Below are positions 187-59,147 of a stretch of DNA of 63,277 bases, piece after piece. A program made the position numbers and the translations under genes. The notes beneath the pieces were generated by a model that was given only the letters and a program-made list of their open reading frames with translations, was not told the origin of the DNA and did no database searches. Position 1 is the stretch's first letter; each line of letters starts with the position of its first letter. The stretch comes from Sulfobacillus benefaciens (GTDB lineage: Bacteria; Bacillota; Sulfobacillia; Sulfobacillales; Sulfobacillaceae), in NCBI GenBank assembly GCA_003023695.1, contig PXYW01000030.1, forward strand, positions 1 to 63,277, written 5' to 3'.

Positions 187-215
187 ATGATATCACGGAC
201 GAATTCTTCATGCAA
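187..215 (-). promoter_or_regulatory. rRNA promoter P1
   Basis: On the minus strand, -35 TTGCAT (215-210), a 17 nt spacer and -10 TATCAT (192-187). Together with P2 this is the tandem promoter pair typical of Firmicute rRNA operons. Confidence 0.7.
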
Positions 216-5421: not shown

Positions 5422-5976
5422 ATGGGGTTTTTCGATTCATTATTTGGCCGAACCAAAATTCCGTCGGGAAAAATGGATCAATTGTTTGCGCTGTCCACCG
5501 CGTTATTGGACATTGAAACCCGTCTTTCCACTCCCTTTGGAAAAAAGGCTGGCATTGTGCTTCGTACCGTCGATAACAGTGGTTACGAATCTATTGAAAA
5601 AGATGTCAATGACGCCCTGCATTTAGGTGGTAAAGACATTCCGGTGACAGCCCATCACGTGGACGACTCCGAGGGATTTCGATGGATTTTGTTCGAAGGT
5701 GGGGACGCAGATGATGTGATTAACGCATTGCATCTCACTGCTGACTTAGTATCGCAAGCCGGCTACGGTGATAGTTTATTGGCCGCCATGTTTGATTTCA
5801 ACGGCTGGTACCTCATTTACAGTTATCGGCGGGGAACTTTTTATCCTTTCGTGCCCAAACCAGGCCACAATCGGGATGATGCACGGGAATTTCGGATTGC
5901 AGAAACTTTAAAGCCATTTATGCCCATAGAAAAGGACCCAGAGCGCCGATATGCGCTGTGGGATCCTCCGCTGTAG
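5422..5976 (+). CDS. pspAB: PspA-associated protein PspAB
   Basis: A 184-residue soluble protein beginning MGFFDSLFGRTK, matching the PspAB family found next to phage-shock proteins in actinobacteria and some Firmicutes. No catalytic motif or membrane segment is visible; biochemical function is unknown. Ribosome site AGGGAGG precedes the ATG. It follows htpX in one transcript and converges on pspAA-pspA, whose stop lies only 8 bp away, so the four genes form one envelope-stress module. Confidence 0.75.
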   Translation: MGFFDSLFGRTKIPSGKMDQLFALSTALLDIETRLSTPFGKKAGIVLRTVDNSGYESIEKDVNDALHLGGKDIPVTAHHVDDSEGFRWILFEGGDADDVINALHLTADLVSQAGYGDSLLAAMFDFNGWYLIYSYRRGTFYPFVPKPGHNRDDAREFRIAETLKPFMPIEKDPERRYALWDPPL

Positions 5977-6254: not shown

Positions 6255-6967
6255 GAGGACGAATCCTCCTTTGCCACATCGGCTTTAAGCCGAGCCAACT
6301 CATCCGATACCCCCGTCTGGGCCTTAATTCGATTGAGCTCATCGCGTACCGCATCACCAGTCGACAAGGGTCCCGATTCCAGAGCCATCGTTCCCGAGAG
6401 TTCATCGATAGCTTGGGCACGTGCTTGAAGAGATTGTGTCTTATCTTGCGCCCGCTGAATAGCCATATTCACATCTGCCATATCTTCTCCTAATCCAGAA
6501 AATGCTTCGCCAATTTTAACTTGGGCCTGTGCCGCGGAATATTGCGCCTTAATGACTTCTTTTTGGGTGCGGAAGGCTTCAACTTTAGTGGTCAATTTTT
6601 GCTGCAAATCGATGAGGCGTTGCTCTTCCTTAGCCAGATCGGCAATTTGTGTCTTCAGGCCATCCATTTGAGCAACCACCGACTGCTTGCTGTTCAATGC
6701 CTGCTGTGCAAGATCATCGCGTCCGGCTTTTACCGCGTCGCGAGCATCCTGGTCATATTGCTGTGCCGATTGTTCTAGTCTATTTAACTGCAATTCGATT
6801 CGCTTCTTGGAGGTAACTACTTCAGCCACGCCACGACGCACATTCTGAAGCTGTTCCACTTGCTTCTGGTAAGAATACTCCAGGGTCTCCCGTGGATCTT
6901 CCGCTTTGTCGAGAACGTTATTGACTTTAGCCTTGAAAATCGTGGATACTCTCGAGATCAAGCCCAT
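6251..6967 (-). CDS. pspA: PspA/IM30 (Vipp1) family membrane-stress protein
   Basis: A 238-residue, almost wholly helical protein with long coiled coils and the N-terminal amphipathic helix MGLISRVSTIFKAKVN that binds stressed membranes. The hallmark segment DPRETLEYSYQKQ follows near residues 25-40. The longer frame opens at 6985, but GGAGGAGG lies within it, so the start is the ATG at 6967. First gene of a two-gene operon with pspAA, driven by the promoter at 6994-7022. Confidence 0.9.
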   Translation of the reverse strand: MGLISRVSTIFKAKVNNVLDKAEDPRETLEYSYQKQVEQLQNVRRGVAEVVTSKKRIELQLNRLEQSAQQYDQDARDAVKAGRDDLAQQALNSKQSVVAQMDGLKTQIADLAKEEQRLIDLQQKLTTKVEAFRTQKEVIKAQYSAAQAQVKIGEAFSGLGEDMADVNMAIQRAQDKTQSLQARAQAIDELSGTMALESGPLSTGDAVRDELNRIKAQTGVSDELARLKADVAKEDSSS

Positions 6968-6993
6968 GGTAAATCCTCCTCCCATTTGAACTC

Positions 6994-7022
6994 AGTATAT
7001 TCCCCGACGCATGGAGTCGCAA
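6994..7022 (-). promoter_or_regulatory. Promoter of pspA-pspAA
   Basis: On the minus strand, TTGCGA (7022-7017), 17 nt spacer, TATACT (6999-6994), 26 nt before the pspA start. A sigma-A-like promoter; no sigma-54 site is seen. Confidence 0.65.
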
Positions 7023-7052
7023 GCACGCACGATGCCTTCGAAATAAAGCTGC

Positions 7053-7074
7053 CTATTTAGGGAATCCTAAATAG
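7053..7074 (+). promoter_or_regulatory. Inverted repeat before the DUF1540 gene
   Basis: CTATTTAGG (7053-7061) and CCTAAATAG (7066-7074) form a perfect 9 bp inverted repeat with a four-base centre. It ends 5 nt before the ribosome site AAGGAGG. It may be an operator or a 5' UTR hairpin; no promoter was clear beside it. Confidence 0.45.
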
Positions 7075-7093
7075 TATTCAAGGAGGTGTCGTT

Positions 7094-8993
<1,900 letters not shown>

Positions 8994-9039
8994 CTACACA
9001 ATTACAAAGCCGTTAAAAATGATGAGGAGTCCGTAGGCT

Positions 9040-9324
9040 CTAGCCCTCGTCCTCCTCAAGTTCTTCTGTCTCCTCCTCATCCCGATCCCGACTGGCAGCA
9101 GCCATTCTGCCAGGCGACTTGGGAAGCCATTCCTTCAAACCCCATTGGGAATTTCCCCGATACTGAAACCGCACGTCAAGATTCAGGTCCGTGTAAATTT
9201 TAGCAGCACGCCGGGGTTCTCGGTCCAATCCTAAAATCGCCAATGTCTCATCCAATAAATCATGGATGTCCATTGCCTCTCCATGTTTTTTCAATACTTC
9301 ATAAGCAGCATCATTAGACTGCAT
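9040..9324 (-). CDS. rpoE: RNA polymerase delta subunit
   Basis: A 94-residue protein with an N-terminal HARE-HTH domain (AAYEVLKKHGEAMDIHDLL...) and an acidic C-terminal tail made mostly of Glu and Asp. This is the build of the Firmicute delta subunit, which binds RNA polymerase core and promotes recycling and sensitivity to initiating nucleotides. It is shorter than the Bacillus protein (about 173 residues), mainly because the acidic tail is short. The position directly upstream of pyrG is conserved in Firmicutes. Confidence 0.85.
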   Translation of the reverse strand: MQSNDAAYEVLKKHGEAMDIHDLLDETLAILGLDREPRRAAKIYTDLNLDVRFQYRGNSQWGLKEWLPKSPGRMAAASRDRDEEETEELEEDEG

Positions 9325-18922: not shown

Positions 18923-20281
18923 TCACGCGTCCTGTCGGTGCTTTTGCCAGTGATCGGCGGCCATTTGCACCGCATCCCAAGGACTCCCCAATGGGGGAGT
19001 GTAGCTAAGATCAACCTCTAGAATATCGGCCACCGACATCTGATGGTAAAGCGCCATTGCAAAAATGTCGATCCGTTTCGCAACCGCGCCCTGCCAATGT
19101 CCCATCAGCTGCGCTCCTAACAGTTGCCCTGTGATTTTATCGCCAGTGACACGAAAGGTTAGCCGATGGGCACCAGGATAGTAGGCCTTATGGTCCCATG
19201 TCGAGAATTCAACGGTCACCGGATGATATCCCGCTGACTTAGCCTCGTGATCACGGAGACCAGTGCGAGCTACTGCCCAATCAAAAACTTTAACCACCTG
19301 GGTGCCTAGTGACCCGCCATAGCGTGCCTGACCCCCTGCCGCATTTTCGCCGGCAACCCGACCTTGCTTATGGGCGGTAGTTCCCAGCGGCATATAGGTG
19401 TCGGCGTGTAACAAGCAATGGTAGGTAACGACACAGTCTCCCGCCGCATAAATATCGTCAAAATTAGTGGCCATGGACCGATCCACAACGATGGCCCCTC
19501 GCTGTCCAGTCGCTATTCCCGCCCCTGTAGCCAATTCCGTGACCGGTTTAACCCCAACCACCACCAACACCATGTCGACACGTTGATCAAAACCACCGTC
19601 GCCCGTGATCCGCAGGACATCTCCCTCTCGCCGTATTTCCTGAATGCGTACCCCGGTTTTCACTTCAACCCCATGGCTCGCGATGTACGATCCTAATGCA
19701 TTGCCCAATTCGCGATCTACGGTAGGCAAAGCGGACGGCAACTGCTCCACCACCGTCACCGCAATTCGTTGATGATGCAGGGCATCGGCCATTTCCAGCC
19801 CAATGTATCCGGCACCAATTATCAGAGCACGCTCCGGCTTATGAGAGGCAATAAAGTCGGCTACGGCAAAGCTGTCTTCCATACTGTGCAGTAAAAATAC
19901 CCCGCGGTGGTCCAATCCCGGAATTGTCGGGCGAATTGGTTCAGCACCAGTCCCTATAACCAGTCGATCATACTGCAAAAGTTCCCGGCTGTTATCAGGC
20001 TTCTGTATTAAAACGGTGTGTTGTTGGGGATTAATTTGAAGGGCGCGAGTATTAAGCTCGACATTGATCCCGGTCTCTTGAATTTCTCCCAAAGTACGAT
20101 GAGCTAAGTGGTGCCAATCGATAACCTCGCCGCTCAGATAAAATGGCAGTCCACAAATACTGTAGTTAGGAAATGCGTCGGCCACCAACATGGTGACATT
20201 AGTGGTGTCGTCTATCTCCCGCGCTCTGAGCGCCGCACTAATCCCGGCGTCACTGCCCCCGATAATGAGAATATTCGCCAT
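18923..20281 (-). CDS. FAD-dependent pyridine nucleotide-disulfide oxidoreductase (CoA-disulfide reductase/NADH oxidase type)
   Basis: A 452-residue flavoprotein. FAD motif IIGGSDAGISAALRA at the N-terminus, single redox Cys in NYSICGLPFYLSGEV (around residue 43), NAD-binding ALIIGAGYIGLEMADAL near residues 150-165, the second FAD motif DDIYAAGDCV, and a C-terminal dimerisation domain. The single Cys rather than C-x4-C places it with CoA-disulfide reductases and NADH oxidases/peroxidases. It lies 29 bp downstream of arsB in the same direction, so a role in arsenic-linked redox is likely but unproven. Confidence 0.8.
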   Translation of the reverse strand: MANILIIGGSDAGISAALRAREIDDTTNVTMLVADAFPNYSICGLPFYLSGEVIDWHHLAHRTLGEIQETGINVELNTRALQINPQQHTVLIQKPDNSRELLQYDRLVIGTGAEPIRPTIPGLDHRGVFLLHSMEDSFAVADFIASHKPERALIIGAGYIGLEMADALHHQRIAVTVVEQLPSALPTVDRELGNALGSYIASHGVEVKTGVRIQEIRREGDVLRITGDGGFDQRVDMVLVVVGVKPVTELATGAGIATGQRGAIVVDRSMATNFDDIYAAGDCVVTYHCLLHADTYMPLGTTAHKQGRVAGENAAGGQARYGGSLGTQVVKVFDWAVARTGLRDHEAKSAGYHPVTVEFSTWDHKAYYPGAHRLTFRVTGDKITGQLLGAQLMGHWQGAVAKRIDIFAMALYHQMSVADILEVDLSYTPPLGSPWDAVQMAADHWQKHRQDA

Positions 20282-23904: not shown

Positions 23905-24807
23905 TTATCGGCCTGAAAGTCCTAGCGATCGCACCTGGCCTATGGACTCCACCAGATCACCCACAGCCGTCAAACCAATGACATCTTCTGCTTGCAACGG
24001 TACCTTAACAAGAGTTGCTTTCGGAAATTGTTCTCCGAGACTGGCAATATACCGCTGTTGCATCTCATACCGCTTTCGAAACAATGGGTGTACACAAACT
24101 TCCTCCGGTAGCACCTGGTTCACAATCACCGCACCAGTTTCAATGCCAATGGTTCTGAGATCGTGAGCTCCGCGATGAGCTTCCTGGATTGGCGTGGACT
24201 CTGGGTATAGTACCCAAGCAAATGTTGTTGTTTGAAGATCTTGCAACATCGCCATAGCGCGATGCATTGTCGCCGCTTCTTCTTGGTCTACAGCATGGCT
24301 CTCTTCCGATCCTTGTGCCTTTACCGCGATTTGCTGGCTATAGCTCAAGGGCAATGCTAGCAGTCGAAGCGTATGTCCGGTGGGAGCGGTATCAAAGACC
24401 ACCGTATCATATTCATCAGTTAACAAAGCCCAAAGAAACCGCCGAAACACCGCCACTTCCTCGGTGCATGGAGAATTCAGTTCTTCTTTCATGCGCTTTA
24501 CAGTGTCCGCCGTATACCGTTCCCGTGCTTCGGCCAAAACGGCCTGTTGATAACGGGCGGTCTCTTCCCGAGGATCAATGCGGGCCGCATACAGCCCAGG
24601 AACTCCAACAATCGCTGTCGGATCTTCACCGACCTGGCTTTCCAACACCAACCCAATATGGGCGGCGGGATCCGTAGTCATTAACAGCGTTTTGGCTCCA
24701 TTTCCGGCATTTTGTACGGCAATGGCCACCGCCAGTGTCGTCTTTCCTACTCCCCCCTTACCTGCCAAAAAGAATCGAGTTGAGTGGTCACCGAACAGCG
24801 TAGACAT
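23905..24807 (-). CDS. arsA: ArsA-type arsenite ATPase, second half-size copy
   Basis: About 300 residues. P-loop FLAGKGGVGKTTLAVAIA, signature FDTAPTGHTLRLLALP, and one metalloid-site Cys in LNSPCTEEVAVF. Bacterial ArsA is often one long protein with two such halves; here the halves are separate genes. The frame opens at 24846, but ATG 24807 (MSTLFGDHSTR) leaves a short leader before the P-loop and only a 20 bp overlap with the upstream arsA. With its neighbour it should form the catalytic subunit that drives ArsB. Confidence 0.85.
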   Translation of the reverse strand: MSTLFGDHSTRFFLAGKGGVGKTTLAVAIAVQNAGNGAKTLLMTTDPAAHIGLVLESQVGEDPTAIVGVPGLYAARIDPREETARYQQAVLAEARERYTADTVKRMKEELNSPCTEEVAVFRRFLWALLTDEYDTVVFDTAPTGHTLRLLALPLSYSQQIAVKAQGSEESHAVDQEEAATMHRAMAMLQDLQTTTFAWVLYPESTPIQEAHRGAHDLRTIGIETGAVIVNQVLPEEVCVHPLFRKRYEMQQRYIASLGEQFPKATLVKVPLQAEDVIGLTAVGDLVESIGQVRSLGLSGR

Positions 24808-25666
24808 CGTCTGACACCCACTTTCCCAAGGCACGCAGGGCTTCAATACCTTTGACTTCGTTTTCCAACAACGGCACTTGAATGGGATTCACGTTAAACT
24901 CCTGAGCTAACCCATCTATGGCCCTCTGCTGCATTCGACGACGCGAGGCAAAGAAGGGATGATCGCTGGCCTCTTCGGGAATCACGCCGTTTACCACAAT
25001 TTGCGGTGTAACAATGGCCAGTTCTGCCAATTCTTTGGCAGCCCGCACCGTTTCCTCGACCGCCGCCCGTTCCGGTTGGGTAACCAAAATGAACGCGGTT
25101 TTGCTTGGATCTTGCAGTCGTTTCAACGCCGCTTCATACTCCGCCTTAGAAGTTTGCAATTGATCTACAGGGCCGATGCACGTCTGACCAGACCCTCGCT
25201 CACTTTCGGTAATATGGACAGACCAAGCAGAGGGCAGCGCCAAAAGCCGCAAGGTATGCCCGGTAGGCGCCGTGTCAAACACAATCACATCATAGTCGGC
25301 TAAGAACATGGCATGAACAAATTCATCAAACCCGGCAATTTCCACAGTGCACGGGCCGCTCATTTGCTCCGCCAACGTGCTAATCATGGAATCTGGAAGC
25401 ACCCCGCGAAGAGGTTCCAATGCCCGTTCACGATAGGCCGCGGCAGAAGCTTCCGCATCAATCTCCTGCGCTCTTAGTCCGGGAACTTGCGATATCGCTT
25501 TAGGTTCCGGACCGATTTCCTGTTCGAATACGTCGGATAGGTTAGACGCGGGATCTGTCGTCACCAACAACACCCGCTGTCCGGCATCCGCTAGGATAAC
25601 CGCTGTGGATGATGCCAAAGACGTCTTGCCGACGCCGCCTTTGCCCGAAAAGAACAAATATCGCAT
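24788..25666 (-). CDS. arsA: ArsA-type arsenite ATPase, first half-size copy
   Basis: 292 residues starting MRYLFFSGKGGVGKTSLASS. It has VFDTAPTGHTLRLLALP and a metalloid-site Cys in MSGPCTVEIAGFDEF. It is clearly homologous to the next gene but diverged, consistent with the two halves of classical ArsA having specialised. The start codon is 5 nt after arsD, and the 3' end overlaps the second arsA by 20 bp, so the pair is probably made in equal amounts. Confidence 0.87.
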   Translation of the reverse strand: MRYLFFSGKGGVGKTSLASSTAVILADAGQRVLLVTTDPASNLSDVFEQEIGPEPKAISQVPGLRAQEIDAEASAAAYRERALEPLRGVLPDSMISTLAEQMSGPCTVEIAGFDEFVHAMFLADYDVIVFDTAPTGHTLRLLALPSAWSVHITESERGSGQTCIGPVDQLQTSKAEYEAALKRLQDPSKTAFILVTQPERAAVEETVRAAKELAELAIVTPQIVVNGVIPEEASDHPFFASRRRMQQRAIDGLAQEFNVNPIQVPLLENEVKGIEALRALGKWVSDDVYAVR

Positions 25667-26322: not shown

Positions 26323-26691
26323 CTACCCGCCAGTAATAGTAAGGAGGGGGCTCGCGTCGGAATTTGGCAATGTTGGACAGACAATATCCACCCGATGGGC
26401 ATTAAGCCACTCTTCCTGATCAGCAACCCGCGGCAAATCACGAACCAGTTCTCTCACGGCAGGAGGCAAATCATCCCGCAACGCATAATACGTCCAATAT
26501 TTTTGACGCCGCTCCGATACCAAACCTACTTGCTTGAGTTTACGGAGGTGCTGAGAAACTGCAGGCTGACTTATCGGCAGCAGTTCGACCAGTTCACAAA
26601 CACACGCTTGCCTTACTCGGAGTAATGCTAGAATTCGAAGTCTGGTCGGATCGCCTAACGCTCGGAAAAGCTCAGCTTTGGTCTCATACAT
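26323..26691 (-). CDS. arsR: ArsR arsenite-responsive repressor
   Basis: A 122-residue winged-helix repressor of the ArsR/SmtB family. The As(III) motif is seen in RQACVCELVELL (C-V-C), just before the recognition helix ISQPAVSQHLRKLKQVGLV. A further Cys occurs in DIVCPT near the C-terminus. First gene of the ars operon; it should repress its own promoter at 26716-26744. Confidence 0.9.
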   Translation of the reverse strand: MYETKAELFRALGDPTRLRILALLRVRQACVCELVELLPISQPAVSQHLRKLKQVGLVSERRQKYWTYYALRDDLPPAVRELVRDLPRVADQEEWLNAHRVDIVCPTLPNSDASPLLTITGG

Positions 26692-31972: not shown

Positions 31973-33019
31973 ATGGCAAAGCGGTTGACGCAAATGACCA
32001 CTAAATCCGGGTGAGGGTGTAAGTTAGGTCCGGAGGACCTAACCCAAGCATTAAGTTTTTTGGTGTCGGCGCCCGTAGCGGATCCTCGGGTACTGGTGGG
32101 GAACGAAACCCATGACGACGCAGGCGTTTTTTTGTTGGATGCCACGCGTGCCTTGGTTCATACGGTCGACTTTCTGACACCGGTGGTAGATGATCCGTAT
32201 ATTTTTGGACAAGTGGCCGCCGCCAATTCCCTGTCGGATATTTACGCCATGGGCGCTACCCCCCTATCCGCACTCAATTTATTAGCGGTCCCGGATGAGA
32301 TCCTCAGCCCTCAAACGATTGGCCAAATGCTACGAGGAGGACAATCCATATTAGACAGGGCCGACACTGCCTTGCTAGGGGGCCATTCGATTGACGATCC
32401 CGAACCCAAAATGGGGTATGCCGTGACGGGCATTGTCCAACCCGACCGAATTTGGCGCAATAGCACCGCACACCCGGGTGATCGCCTATTTTTGACCAAA
32501 CCCATTGGAAGCGGGGTTATCATTAAAGCCATTAAAGATGGGGACGCCACCGATACCATGGCCGATGCCGTGATTGCCATGATGACAACTTTGAATCGCG
32601 GGGCGAAGGAGGCCTTAGAGGAAGCTTGCATACCAACAGCGGTAACCGACGTTACCGGTTTTGGGCTGCTGGGCCATGTTTGGGAAATGGCTATGGGGGC
32701 GGGAGTTGGTATTCATATTGATGCCGCAAAGGTTCCTCTTTTGCCGGGTGCTGCTGACTTAGCTCAATCGGATCGGTTCCCCGCCGGAAGTCGGCGCAAT
32801 CTCGATTATGTGAGGCCTCATCTTCAGGTAAAAAACCGCGTTGAGAACTGGCTGTTGACTTTATTGTCAGATGCGGTCACCTCAGGTGGACTGATTTTTA
32901 CTGTGAAAGCCGAGGATGAAGCGAAAGTTTGCCAGAGTTTTGCGGACAAAGGTCTTCCCCTTTACGCCATTGGCTACGTCGTTCAAACAGAAGTCCCGAT
33001 GTTAGTAGTGAATCGATAG
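31973..33019 (+). CDS. selD: Selenide, water dikinase (selenophosphate synthetase), selenocysteine-containing
   Basis: 348 residues if the in-frame TGA at 32012-32014 is read as selenocysteine (codon 14). The text around it is LTQMTTKSG-Sec-GCKLGPEDL, aligning with the catalytic Cys/Sec loop of SelD. Downstream are NETHDDAGVF, FLTPVVDDPYIFGQVAAANSLSD and VTDVTGFGLLGHVWEMA, all diagnostic. It makes selenophosphate from selenide and ATP, the selenium donor for Sec-tRNA. The start ATG follows AGAAGG. Calling a gene after the stop would begin at 32060 and lose the active site. A perfect hairpin at 32023-32043 follows the UGA. Confidence 0.93.
32023..32043 (+). promoter_or_regulatory. Bacterial SECIS-like hairpin in selD
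   Basis: GTTAGGTCC (32023-32031), loop GGA, GGACCTAAC (32035-32043): a perfect 9 bp stem beginning 8 nt after the UGA. Position and a G-rich apical loop fit recognition by SelB. Confidence 0.8.
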
Positions 33020-56823: not shown

Positions 56824-57702
56824 ATGGCCCATCACCATGCCCACGAAGATGCCTCACCGATTGGGCGCACATTTGCCATTACCGCCTTGTTGCTCATCAT
56901 CAAAGTCGCTGGGGCCATTTTATCTGGCAGTTTGGCCTTATGGGCCGATGCCGGGCACTCGGTAACGGACTTGGCGGCGGTAGGACTGTCGTGGTATGCA
57001 TGGCATCAGGCTAAAAAACCAGCAACCTCCACCCTTACCTTTGGCTATTTTCGCAGCGAAATTTTAGCCGCCTTAGTCAACAGCGTGATATTGTTGATTT
57101 TAACCCTTGGCTTGTTGCTCGAAGCGATCATGCGGTTTTTTCATCCTACCGCGGTCAACCCTTTCGCTATGCTGATTACTGCGGTTATAGCCCTAGGGGG
57201 CGATCTTTATCTCGCCCACGGATTGAAGGGCCATGCCAACGTCAATATTCGCAGCACCTGGCTCCATATCGTCAGTGACGCCGCTGGGTCCTTCGCCGTG
57301 GTTATAGGCGCAATAGTCATAGCCACCACTGGCTGGACGCCAGTGGACCCTATGCTCACGATCCTTATTGCTGCGTTGATTTCCTGGGGCGCCTGGCAAA
57401 TTATCACAGAAACGGTGGCGGTACTCATGGAAGCTACGCCTAAAAATCTTGACGTGCATCATTTAGTTGCCACCATGGGACAAATAGAGGGCATTATCCG
57501 GGTACATGACGTGCATGTGTGGAGTGTCACCACCGGAAAAAATGCTCTAGCTTGCCATGTCGTGCTTGCCCCAAACATTTCCATGAAAGATAGTCAGACA
57601 ATATTGCGCCAAGTCGACTTAGCGCTCCGTCTAGAAGGCATTGAACACATGACGATCCAGATGGAGACATCTGATGCAGATCATGATGAGCCCTCATGGT
57701 AA
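56824..57702 (+). CDS. Cation diffusion facilitator (Zn/Co/Cd efflux)
   Basis: About 292 residues, six membrane helices and a cytoplasmic ferredoxin-like domain. The zinc site of helix 2 is in LWADAGHSVTDLAAV and that of helix 5 in WLHIVSDAAGSFAVV (H-x3-D pairs). The N-terminus is His-rich (MAHHHAHEDA). CzcD/ZitB type, exporting divalent metal by proton antiport. GAGGAGG before ATG 56824 fixes the start. No metal riboswitch was seen in the 5' region. Confidence 0.9.
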   Translation: MAHHHAHEDASPIGRTFAITALLLIIKVAGAILSGSLALWADAGHSVTDLAAVGLSWYAWHQAKKPATSTLTFGYFRSEILAALVNSVILLILTLGLLLEAIMRFFHPTAVNPFAMLITAVIALGGDLYLAHGLKGHANVNIRSTWLHIVSDAAGSFAVVIGAIVIATTGWTPVDPMLTILIAALISWGAWQIITETVAVLMEATPKNLDVHHLVATMGQIEGIIRVHDVHVWSVTTGKNALACHVVLAPNISMKDSQTILRQVDLALRLEGIEHMTIQMETSDADHDEPSW

Positions 57703-57920
57703 GGCGATTGCACGTTGCTGAGAGGGATTAGGAGGGCACTGGCTTGCCAGAGGAAGATGCCGAGAAGAGGAAAGGCCACACTCCTCTCCCCTCCATCGAG
57801 GGAGACAAAGGTCAGACGCACAATGGATGTGTAGGCTGGTCCAGAGTTTTAGGCTGCTGCTGACACCACTACCCTCGTGGTATAATTTGGAGATGAAAGG
57901 GGTGTTGTATCACGGAAAAA
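57703..57920 (+). promoter_or_regulatory. Leader and promoter region of the Sec fusion gene
   Basis: 218 bp without a gene. TATAAT (57881-57886) with a CTGACA-like -35 (57860-57865, 15 nt spacer) precedes AAAGGGG (57896-57902). Upstream GC-rich dyads do not match a known RNA. No terminator for the metal exporter is clear. Confidence 0.45.
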
Positions 57921-58703
57921 GTGCCGTTGTTACCTGTAGACAATGAATTGGCTATCGATTTATGGTACGAAGGACCTACGTTCTTGATTGCAGATAAGCC
58001 TTTTGGCGTATCAGTTTATCCTATGGAAAGTCATTCACGGGGGACCTTGGTCAATGCCTTATTGCAATCCAATCGATGGCTCGCGGAAATGGAAACGAGT
58101 ATATCTCCGGGAGTAATTCACGTTTTGCGTCCGGAAGATCGCGGCCTGACCCTTGTGGCCAAGAGTGACGACATGGCATCCGAGCTACGTGAATTGTATC
58201 AAAAAAGCGCGATTACCTTCAGTTACCGGGTCCAGGTCCCATCTTCCATCAAACCTACAGCAACCGACGCGGTCCGAATTTTTGACACCCACGCGTATGG
58301 AGAATTAACAATCTATGATATTGACTCTCCGGTAGGAAATACCGAAGAAGTAGCACGAAAATGGCTGGGGCCAGAAGCAATGCATCTGGCGCGTTTTGTT
58401 TGTTATCGGATGATAGTGCCAACACCCACTAAGATGTTTCAGATTGGCCTTGGGGAACGCGTTTTGTTGCCCGATATCGACCTTTACACCGCCCCGACCT
58501 GAAGCGTGTGCAACGGCACGAAAGAGTTTCTTTCGTCTTACGGTTTTGGTTATGTAGACCATACACTTACTGATCGGGCCAATGTCGAGCGCATGAAAAT
58601 TTTAAGTCGGGGTGAACGGGGCATCCCCGTGATCGTGATGAATGGGGTCGTGAGCATTGCTTTAGACCGCCATCGGCTTAAGTCCCACCTGGGGTTGTAT
58701 TAA
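57921..58703 (+). CDS. Degenerate pseudouridine-synthase-like domain fused through selenocysteine to a U-x-x-C glutaredoxin domain
   Basis: 260 residues if TGA at 58500-58502 is Sec (codon 194). Residues 1 to about 150 resemble RluA pseudouridine synthases (IADKPFGVSVYP, RGTLVNALLQ, RGLTLVAKSDDM), but the R-L-D catalytic motif is HVLRPEDRGL, so the Asp is lost. The end of this part, LPDIDLYTAPT, is a glutaredoxin first strand; Sec then gives U-S-V-C, followed by NGTKEFLSSYGFGYVDHTLT, cis-Pro loop RGIPVIVMNG, and a final helix. The C-terminal part has no ribosome site of its own. AAAGGGG lies 18 nt before GTG 57921 but 6 nt before an in-frame ATC (57909), so the true start may be non-standard. 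A SECIS-like hairpin follows the UGA. Confidence 0.82.
58518..58536 (+). promoter_or_regulatory. Bacterial SECIS-like hairpin in the fusion gene
   Basis: ACGAAAGA (58518-58525), loop GTT, TCTTTCGT (58529-58536), a perfect 8 bp stem beginning 15 nt after the UGA. Spacing, stem length and loop size equal those at 52053-52071, though the stem sequence differs. Confidence 0.78.
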
Positions 58704-58720
58704 TAACACCGCGAATCCTT

Positions 58721-58743
58721 GGGAGCCCGTGTTACGGGTTCCC
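58721..58743 (+). terminator. Hairpin after the Sec fusion gene
   Basis: GGGAGCCCGT / ACGGGTTCCC (58721-58730 with 58734-58743), 10 bp with one G-T pair and a GTT loop. No T-run, so termination efficiency is uncertain; it also lies beyond the stop of the convergent DUF1003-like gene. Confidence 0.55.
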
Positions 58744-58772
58744 CTTGGGAAGTTGGGGTTTGTATGCCCCGC

Positions 58773-59147
58773 TCATGGTTGAGGTTTGGATGGAGAATTT
58801 TCTTCGGTCTCCTCCAGTGCAGATAGTTCTTGGTGTACCCGGTTTAAGTCGGTGTCTATATGTTCCAGCAGCAAATTGAGTTTTTTTACAATTTCAAACT
58901 CCCTTTGTTCTCGTGCCTGATTGGACCTGTTTAATACCATTTGGCCCACCGCCAGTACTGGAAGCATAAGCGCTTGAAAGAGATTAACCCAATATAGCAT
59001 CACTGGGTAATTAGGCGAATTATCCCAATGCATCAGAGGAGAGCCCCACATCCAAAGACCGATAAATACCACAAATCCATAGAGAAACCACATGGATGTC
59101 ACCAAGCGAGTAATACCACTAGCAATCCGGTCATTCCAGTTGGTCAT
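58773..59147 (-). CDS. DUF1003-like small membrane protein
   Basis: About 124 residues. WNDRIASGITRLVTSMWFLY and the two membrane helices that follow (to about residue 70) match the DUF1003 pattern; the C-terminal part is a charged coiled coil (EFEIVKKLNLLLEHIDTDLN). Shorter than most DUF1003 proteins. CAGGAG spaced 6 nt from ATG 59147 sets the start. Function unknown. Confidence 0.6.
   Translation of the reverse strand: MTNWNDRIASGITRLVTSMWFLYGFVVFIGLWMWGSPLMHWDNSPNYPVMLYWVNLFQALMLPVLAVGQMVLNRSNQAREQREFEIVKKLNLLLEHIDTDLNRVHQELSALEETEENSPSKPQP

Follow-up and report, generated by a model that had tools for sequence, protein, structure and literature searches.

A predicted selenoprotein of Sulfobacillus and its relatives that joins an RluA-fold domain to a selenocysteine glutaredoxin

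Glutaredoxins with selenocysteine (Sec) are represented by the free-standing 84-residue redoxin cGrx1 (PDB 7c10, 7c12), which we take to be the Sec glutaredoxin of Clostridium sp. OhILAs/Alkaliphilus oremlandii. The curated families UXX-star and GlrX_YruB (NF041212, TIGR02196) show alternation of Sec and cysteine (Cys), and HUGP/GUXX-star (NF045501) is named as a selenoprotein in which a UXX-star part is fused at the C-terminal end. The RluA/RluD proteins (PF00849, TIGR00005) are pseudouridine synthases of 23S rRNA and tRNA. Here we analyzed a gene at positions 57921-58703 on the forward strand of a 63,277-nt stretch of Sulfobacillus benefaciens DNA (contig PXYW01000030.1, assembly GCA_003023695.1; hereafter the window), in which, unlike in cGrx1, a redoxin is joined to an RluA-fold domain. 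We consider it probable that this gene encodes one selenoprotein, composed of the RluA-fold domain and a glutaredoxin linked to it by a UGA-encoded Sec, and that the protein acts as a selenol-based disulfide reductase; its chemistry is deduced from fold and motif. The selenoprotein reading draws on the alternation of TGA and TGC in relatives, a hairpin tied to TGA and genes for the Sec machinery, namely those for SelA and SelB in the same genome and selD within the window.

The TGA at 58500-58502 is the single break between two in-register frames, 57921-58502 and 58503-58703. Reading it as Sec (U) gives a protein of 260 residues that carries U194-S-V-C197, has RGIPV at the cis-Pro position and ends at a TAA stop (58701-58703), and we confirmed that 57921-58703 is one gene interrupted by this TGA. 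The RluA/RluD-fold pseudoenzyme domain comprises residues 1-184 (57921-58472) and the glutaredoxin/NrdH/YruB-type domain with U194-x-x-C197 comprises residues 185-260 (58473-58700), all on the forward strand. The Pfam Glutaredoxin model (PF00462) spans the TGA (residues 188-243, E-value 3.4e-7, 30.8 bits with a cut-off of 22.9); without the part before the TGA the score falls to 20.7 bits, under that cut-off. The protein has the glutaredoxin fold, a score over the cut-off, [CU]-x-x-[CS] and the cis-Pro, and the resolving Cys is present in 29 of 29 rows. A first-pass annotation of the same DNA had joined the two frames through one TGA and had placed a U-x-x-C glutaredoxin across it; both proposals held. 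Its claim that the downstream part has no start signal held in part: no relative that we read keeps a separate gene there, but GTG 58506 does open the downstream frame. The start of the whole gene may be ATC 57909 instead of GTG 57921, judging from sequence context. This non-canonical codon lies 6 nt after a Shine-Dalgarno-like GGGG run and would add a short N-terminal extension (57909-57920), I-T-E-K, close to the M-D/E-K of relatives. ATC stands at the same start position in one related locus (L025; labels with G, C and L are ours for genomes, contigs and loci), and ATA in another (L026), whose frame has ordinary starts further upstream. A scan of 57600-58800 for promoters and terminators found nothing above chance (one promoter-like site, compared to a shuffle mean of 1.4).

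UXX-star and GlrX_YruB are the best curated matches of the glutaredoxin part. NF041212 aligns with residues 187-249 (E-value 5.7e-10) and matches 28 of 28 members at an E-value of 1e-3 or better, although neither curated cut-off is reached (39.3 vs 66 bits for NF041212, 34.2 vs 88.55 bits for TIGR02196). In contrast to these families the redoxin is fused here, and its motif is U-x-x-C, compared to UxxT for UXX-star family 1 in the accessible part of PMC13188914. NF045501 matches the glutaredoxin part alone (residues 188-246, 21 bits vs a cut-off of 325) and leaves the N-terminal partner unmatched. The same genome also holds a free-standing Sec glutaredoxin with YTTPTUPHC (L147, G000:C119:33527-33748).

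Codon 194 was read from DNA in 27 distinct full-length genes including that of the window; 21 of them have TGA and six have TGC. A second fusion gene of the window's genome (the paralogue L100) has TGA as well, so that the totals are 22 TGA and six TGC among 28 genes. A different stop codon in homologues, named in the first-pass annotation as an observation that would speak against Sec, was not seen in any of the 28. Because these genes carry TGA or TGC at codon 194, chance is excluded. In the protein collection we aligned 82 database relatives besides the query and two read-through rows (85 rows in total): 53 end exactly at residue 193, with a stop codon that is not visible in the database, 26 have Cys194 and three are fragments without that site. 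On a tree of 38 rows, made up of the 28 DNA-read genes and 10 Cys proteins chosen from the 26, the Sec/Cys label changes seven times, and at least four of these changes are forced by well-supported branches.

The distribution of the fusion is narrow: it was found in the window organism's family, in one metagenome-assembled genome labelled as Actinomycetes (L021) and in a few Bacillaceae. The first search for related loci returned 23 loci. Of the 34 family genomes, 22 carry the fusion, with 25 full-length genes among them and a broken additional copy in G027; no fusion gene was seen in the remaining 12, some of which are incomplete. Sulfobacillus thermotolerans (L019) has Cys and S. harzensis (L014) TGA; among the Bacillaceae, Terrihalobacillus insolitus and Bacillus pinisoli have TGA and Alkalihalobacillus deserti (P0066) has Cys. 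In the order of Terrihalobacillus, two of 397 sampled genomes match at an E-value of 1e-40, both already in the set. A profile search of a phylum sample matched 377 of 398 genomes at an E-value of 1e-15, with best values of 5.8e-24 or weaker except in G000, G007 and G021, all three of the own family. The matches listed cover almost always the RluA-type part alone and none has a TGA; a fusion widespread through the phylum was therefore rejected, as the matches fall where ordinary RluA proteins would match. No plasmid matched the profile at an E-value of 1e-15.

The hairpin ACGAAAGA-GTT-TCTTTCGT at 58518-58536 (forward strand), a perfect 8-bp stem with a GTT loop 15 nt past the TGA, has the position and form that the first-pass annotation gave it. 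In 21 TGA genes 90.5% of the cells of the stem (58518-58525 with 58529-58536) are paired and four pairs are changed on both sides, while sliding the partners by 1 to 3 columns leaves 39-67% paired; in two of the 21 (L011 and L045) a comparable stem lies one base off and is mostly scored as misses. In the six Cys genes the same stem is 64.6% paired (slides 23-56%) and one pair is never formed. We also compared codon usage, counted in pairs among identically encoded residues. The hairpin codons (window 200-206) agree in 84% of the pairs in the 22 TGA genes, compared to 38% (standard deviation 14) elsewhere, and rank highest of 174 seven-codon windows; in the six Cys genes they agree in 40% compared to 43% elsewhere, which is rank 108 of 210. 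These comparisons point to a bacterial Sec insertion sequence (SECIS)-like hairpin under selection downstream of the TGA and tied to it.

Genes for the Sec machinery were found in the own genome, with SelA at G000:C136 (550.7 bits) and SelB at G000:C35 (357.7 bits). SelB passes its cut-off in 30 of the 34 family genomes, including all 22 fusion carriers, and in both Bacillaceae genomes; tRNA-Sec does so in 24 of 34, including 19 of the 22 carriers. The window itself holds selD for selenophosphate synthetase (31973-33019, forward strand, named by sequence), whose in-frame TGA at 32012-32014 (SGUGCK) bears out the earlier view that this gene is Sec-coded; its product is predicted to be a selenoprotein too. 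In S. thermotolerans a Sec-containing peroxiredoxin is named among up-regulated proteins in the accessible part of a proteomics study (PMC7409299).

We assign the N-terminal part with confidence to the RluA/RluD fold. Its family scores stay under the cut-offs: PF00849 covers residues 21-111 at an E-value of 4.5e-4 (20.9 bits vs a cut-off of 26.8), and TIGR00005 gives 34.6 bits vs 192.7 on the window protein. HVLRPED stands where HRLDKDT is expected, so that the replaced catalytic R-L-D described in the first-pass annotation is indeed seen. At residue 70, where the synthases have their catalytic Asp, the 85 rows hold R 24, A 24, E 12, M 5, D 5, N 5, H 4, G 2, S 2, L 1 and Q 1, the window having R, and the motif-III Arg of GRTHQIR (residue 140) is replaced by D in 62, N in 19, E in two and Q in one, with one gap; both residues are thus unconserved here, unlike in the RluA/RluD synthases. 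The motif II Tyr is retained in 77 rows. All 85 rows share N45, L47, R52, W53, L54, M57, E58, G64, D73, G75 and G139, which argues that the domain is under selection for something other than pseudouridine synthesis. It also differs from these synthases in charge and extent. The first 193 residues of the 82 proteins have a median isoelectric point of 5.13 (4.4-9.3) and a net charge of -8 (-17 to +3), compared to 9.42 (7.2-9.8) and +5 (0 to +11) for 20 ordinary RluA domains, which a motif search drew from 36 loci, a glutaredoxin locus among them, and which were cut to ~216 residues. Two segments of ordinary RluA domains are missing from the fusion's domain, and these presumably include RNA-gripping loops. 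In a model of the whole protein (predicted template modelling score 0.91) the two domains are predicted to form one rigid unit.

Beside the paralogue L100 (G000:C106) lies a gene like that for coenzyme A (CoA)-disulfide reductase (CoADR) at 6914-8260, followed by the second fusion gene of the genome at 8396-9181. This neighbour (L100:6914-8257) scores 427.1 bits for TIGR03385, the best of 45 families and under the equivalog cut-off of 578.8, and is CoADR-like only. Its active-site Cys position is TGA-coded, as in the Sec CoADR-like FAD oxidoreductase described in the accessible part of PMC13188914; the motif given there is UGxP, compared to SYSAU-S-[VI]-P in the flavoenzyme of the clade with adjacent genes, which is paired with the fusion. 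The Sec/Cys state of the fusion and of the CoADR-like gene agrees in eight of eight adjacent pairs. In two genomes the pair seems to be in decay: a decayed CoADR-like gene lies beside a Cys fusion in L008 (4528-5576), and both genes are broken in L116 (about 325-2399). The window has another CoADR-like flavoenzyme gene (18923-20281), with an ordinary Cys active site (YSICGLPFY).

As to mechanism, the selenolate of Sec194 would attack a disulfide, simple or mixed, that is presented in the remodelled RluA-type pocket or close to it; the resulting selenenyl-sulfide would then be resolved by Cys197. In the clade with adjacent genes only, the NAD(P)H/FAD CoADR-type flavoenzyme would supply electrons, directly or via CoA; outside this clade they would come from another reductase.

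Several observations weigh against this account of a Sec-dependent disulfide reductase. No tRNA-Sec match over the cut-off was found in the own assembly (G000), nor in G031 and G009. A DNA search with the tRNA-Sec of G030 gave a 91% match in G009 to part of that gene, and nothing above chance in G000 or G031. In G030 the tRNA-Sec follows a cysteine-synthase-like gene (named by eye); the closest counterpart in G000 has 80% identity, carries one TAG inside the match and is cut at base 5853 of a 5854-base contig (C4). As contig C4 ends inside this counterpart, an assembly gap is the likely explanation for the missing tRNA-Sec of G000. The tRNA-Sec match of G022 likewise lies at a contig end. Concerning the hairpin, two measures do not exceed their controls: 7 further pair types were counted, whereas shuffling gives 7.9 on average and reached that count in 492 of 500 runs, and a slide of the partners by -2 yields five pairs changed on both sides compared to four. 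B. pinisoli (L023) prefers another fold. Single-sequence folding energy is ordinary, with a z-score of -0.17 for the window and -2.33 to +1.55 for 13 sequences, and the evidence for the hairpin is comparative. Concerning the partner enzyme, the matching Sec/Cys states rest on few independent switches and two of the eight adjacent pairs have broken frames. No CoADR-like gene adjoins the window copy, an adjacent pair is absent from 14 of the 22 genomes with a fusion, and nine fusion genes of another clade are followed directly by a gene for a ~105-aa acidic protein with a DWIIKHD motif.

In one clade the fusion possibly acts on CoA-linked disulfides. Because BshC, a bacillithiol enzyme, has no match in 34 of 34 family genomes in a search that does find B. 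subtilis BshC, CoA is a candidate for the main thiol. In the accessible parts of PMC10950700 and PMC10136147, glutaredoxin-like CoAredoxins working with CoA-disulfide reductase are expected, the thioredoxin-type proteins YtpP and TrxA are reported to strip CoA from proteins in B. subtilis, and a deCoAlation assay is described (PMC10136147). The fusion would fit such a role. A bolder proposal, to which we give little weight, is that it is the anticipated dedicated CoAredoxin of bacteria without bacillithiol, in which the former uridine pocket would hold the CoA nucleotide, the Sec glutaredoxin would remove CoA and, in one clade, the Sec CoADR-type flavoenzyme would regenerate the couple, as a two-selenium relay from NAD(P)H via FAD, Sec and Sec to the CoA disulfide.

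Two other functions seem improbable to us, in equal measure. The first-pass annotation had seen a retired synthase fold carrying a Sec redoxin, which stands, and had interpreted it as a scaffold that binds tRNA or other RNA and carries a redox selenol, perhaps to act on thiolated or oxidised RNA; the acidic N-terminal domain and its two missing segments disfavour this idea. Alternatively, the redoxin might be a ligand for, or detoxify, metals or metalloids (Hg, As) like UXX-star selenoproteins, with the RluA-like domain as a carrier: all members match NF041212, UXX-star proteins are suggested to bind metal in the accessible part of PMC13188914, and the window contains ArsA/GET3-family ATPase and ArsR/SmtB-family regulator genes, but the NF041212 score lies under the family cut-off, the resolving Cys is kept in all 29 rows and no ars or mer gene was recognised among the recurrent neighbours, most of which were judged by eye. 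An active pseudouridine synthase with a redoxin as a mere appendage would suit the RluA fold and the widely kept motif II Tyr, but is highly improbable and was rejected on the residue 70 column, with D in only 5 of 85 rows, and on the family scores. Equally remote is a TGA that truly stops translation to leave a 193-aa protein and a dead glutaredoxin remnant: gene callers end here in 53 of 82 database proteins and the own assembly gave no tRNA-Sec, but we rejected this reading on the codon alternation, the hairpin covariation and the synonymous constraint confined to TGA genes, in which the downstream frame is undecayed.

The ~105-aa acidic proteins (L005 6874-7188, L012 6809-7126, L014 6786-7103 and six others) have no Pfam or NCBIfam match and no sequence match in the PDB. 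Their model is confident (pLDDT 95.0) and gave no Foldseek match at an E-value of 0.001 or better; a weak likeness to PUR repeats was observed. Beside the window copy of the fusion lie genes for heme A synthase COX15-CtaA, cation efflux and DUF1003, and other recurrent neighbours, judged by eye, are cytochrome-oxidase-like and glyoxylate-cycle-like genes. Apart from the CoADR-like and 105-aa genes, the recurrent neighbours lie on the opposite strand or are common to near relatives. In B. pinisoli (L023, 5317-5973) the fusion closely follows thioredoxin-like and toprim-like genes and lies near a gcvH-like gene (by eye). Elsewhere in the window, two tandem ArsA/GET3-like ATPase genes and the ArsR/SmtB-family regulator gene (23905-25666 and 26323-26691) lie roughly 5-8 kb from selD, and TIGR00345 is over the cut-off for the one ATPase tested. 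A cyclic di-AMP riboswitch (Rfam RF00379, 9588-9750) stands at the start of a gene that most resembles the spore cortex-lytic and peptidoglycan hydrolase families, with scores under the cut-off.

We rate the fusion as a new architecture of a known type, the Sec glutaredoxin. Full-text literature searches, which did not reach every likely source, found no description of a fusion between an RluA/pseudouridine synthase and a glutaredoxin, and NCBIfam 20.0 has no model spanning it, in line with the first-pass annotation, which knew of no described protein of this kind. The word 'pseudouridine' does not occur in the accessible main text of PMC13188914, PMC9312934 and the deep-Sep paper (PMC12013277). 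Database product names, where given, are pseudouridine synthase, glutaredoxin or hypothetical protein. With 53 of the 82 entries also ending at the TGA, misreading of both halves is the usual outcome. The fusion adds a selenoprotein family whose architecture is absent from the reviews searched, and in it an RNA-modification fold is recruited into a redox protein. Where a second selenoprotein with a matching Sec/Cys state is encoded beside it, the pair offers a natural experiment on selenium relays. The CoA reading would also make testable which glutaredoxin-type enzyme partners CoADR, a question raised in the accessible parts of PMC10136147 and PMC10950700.
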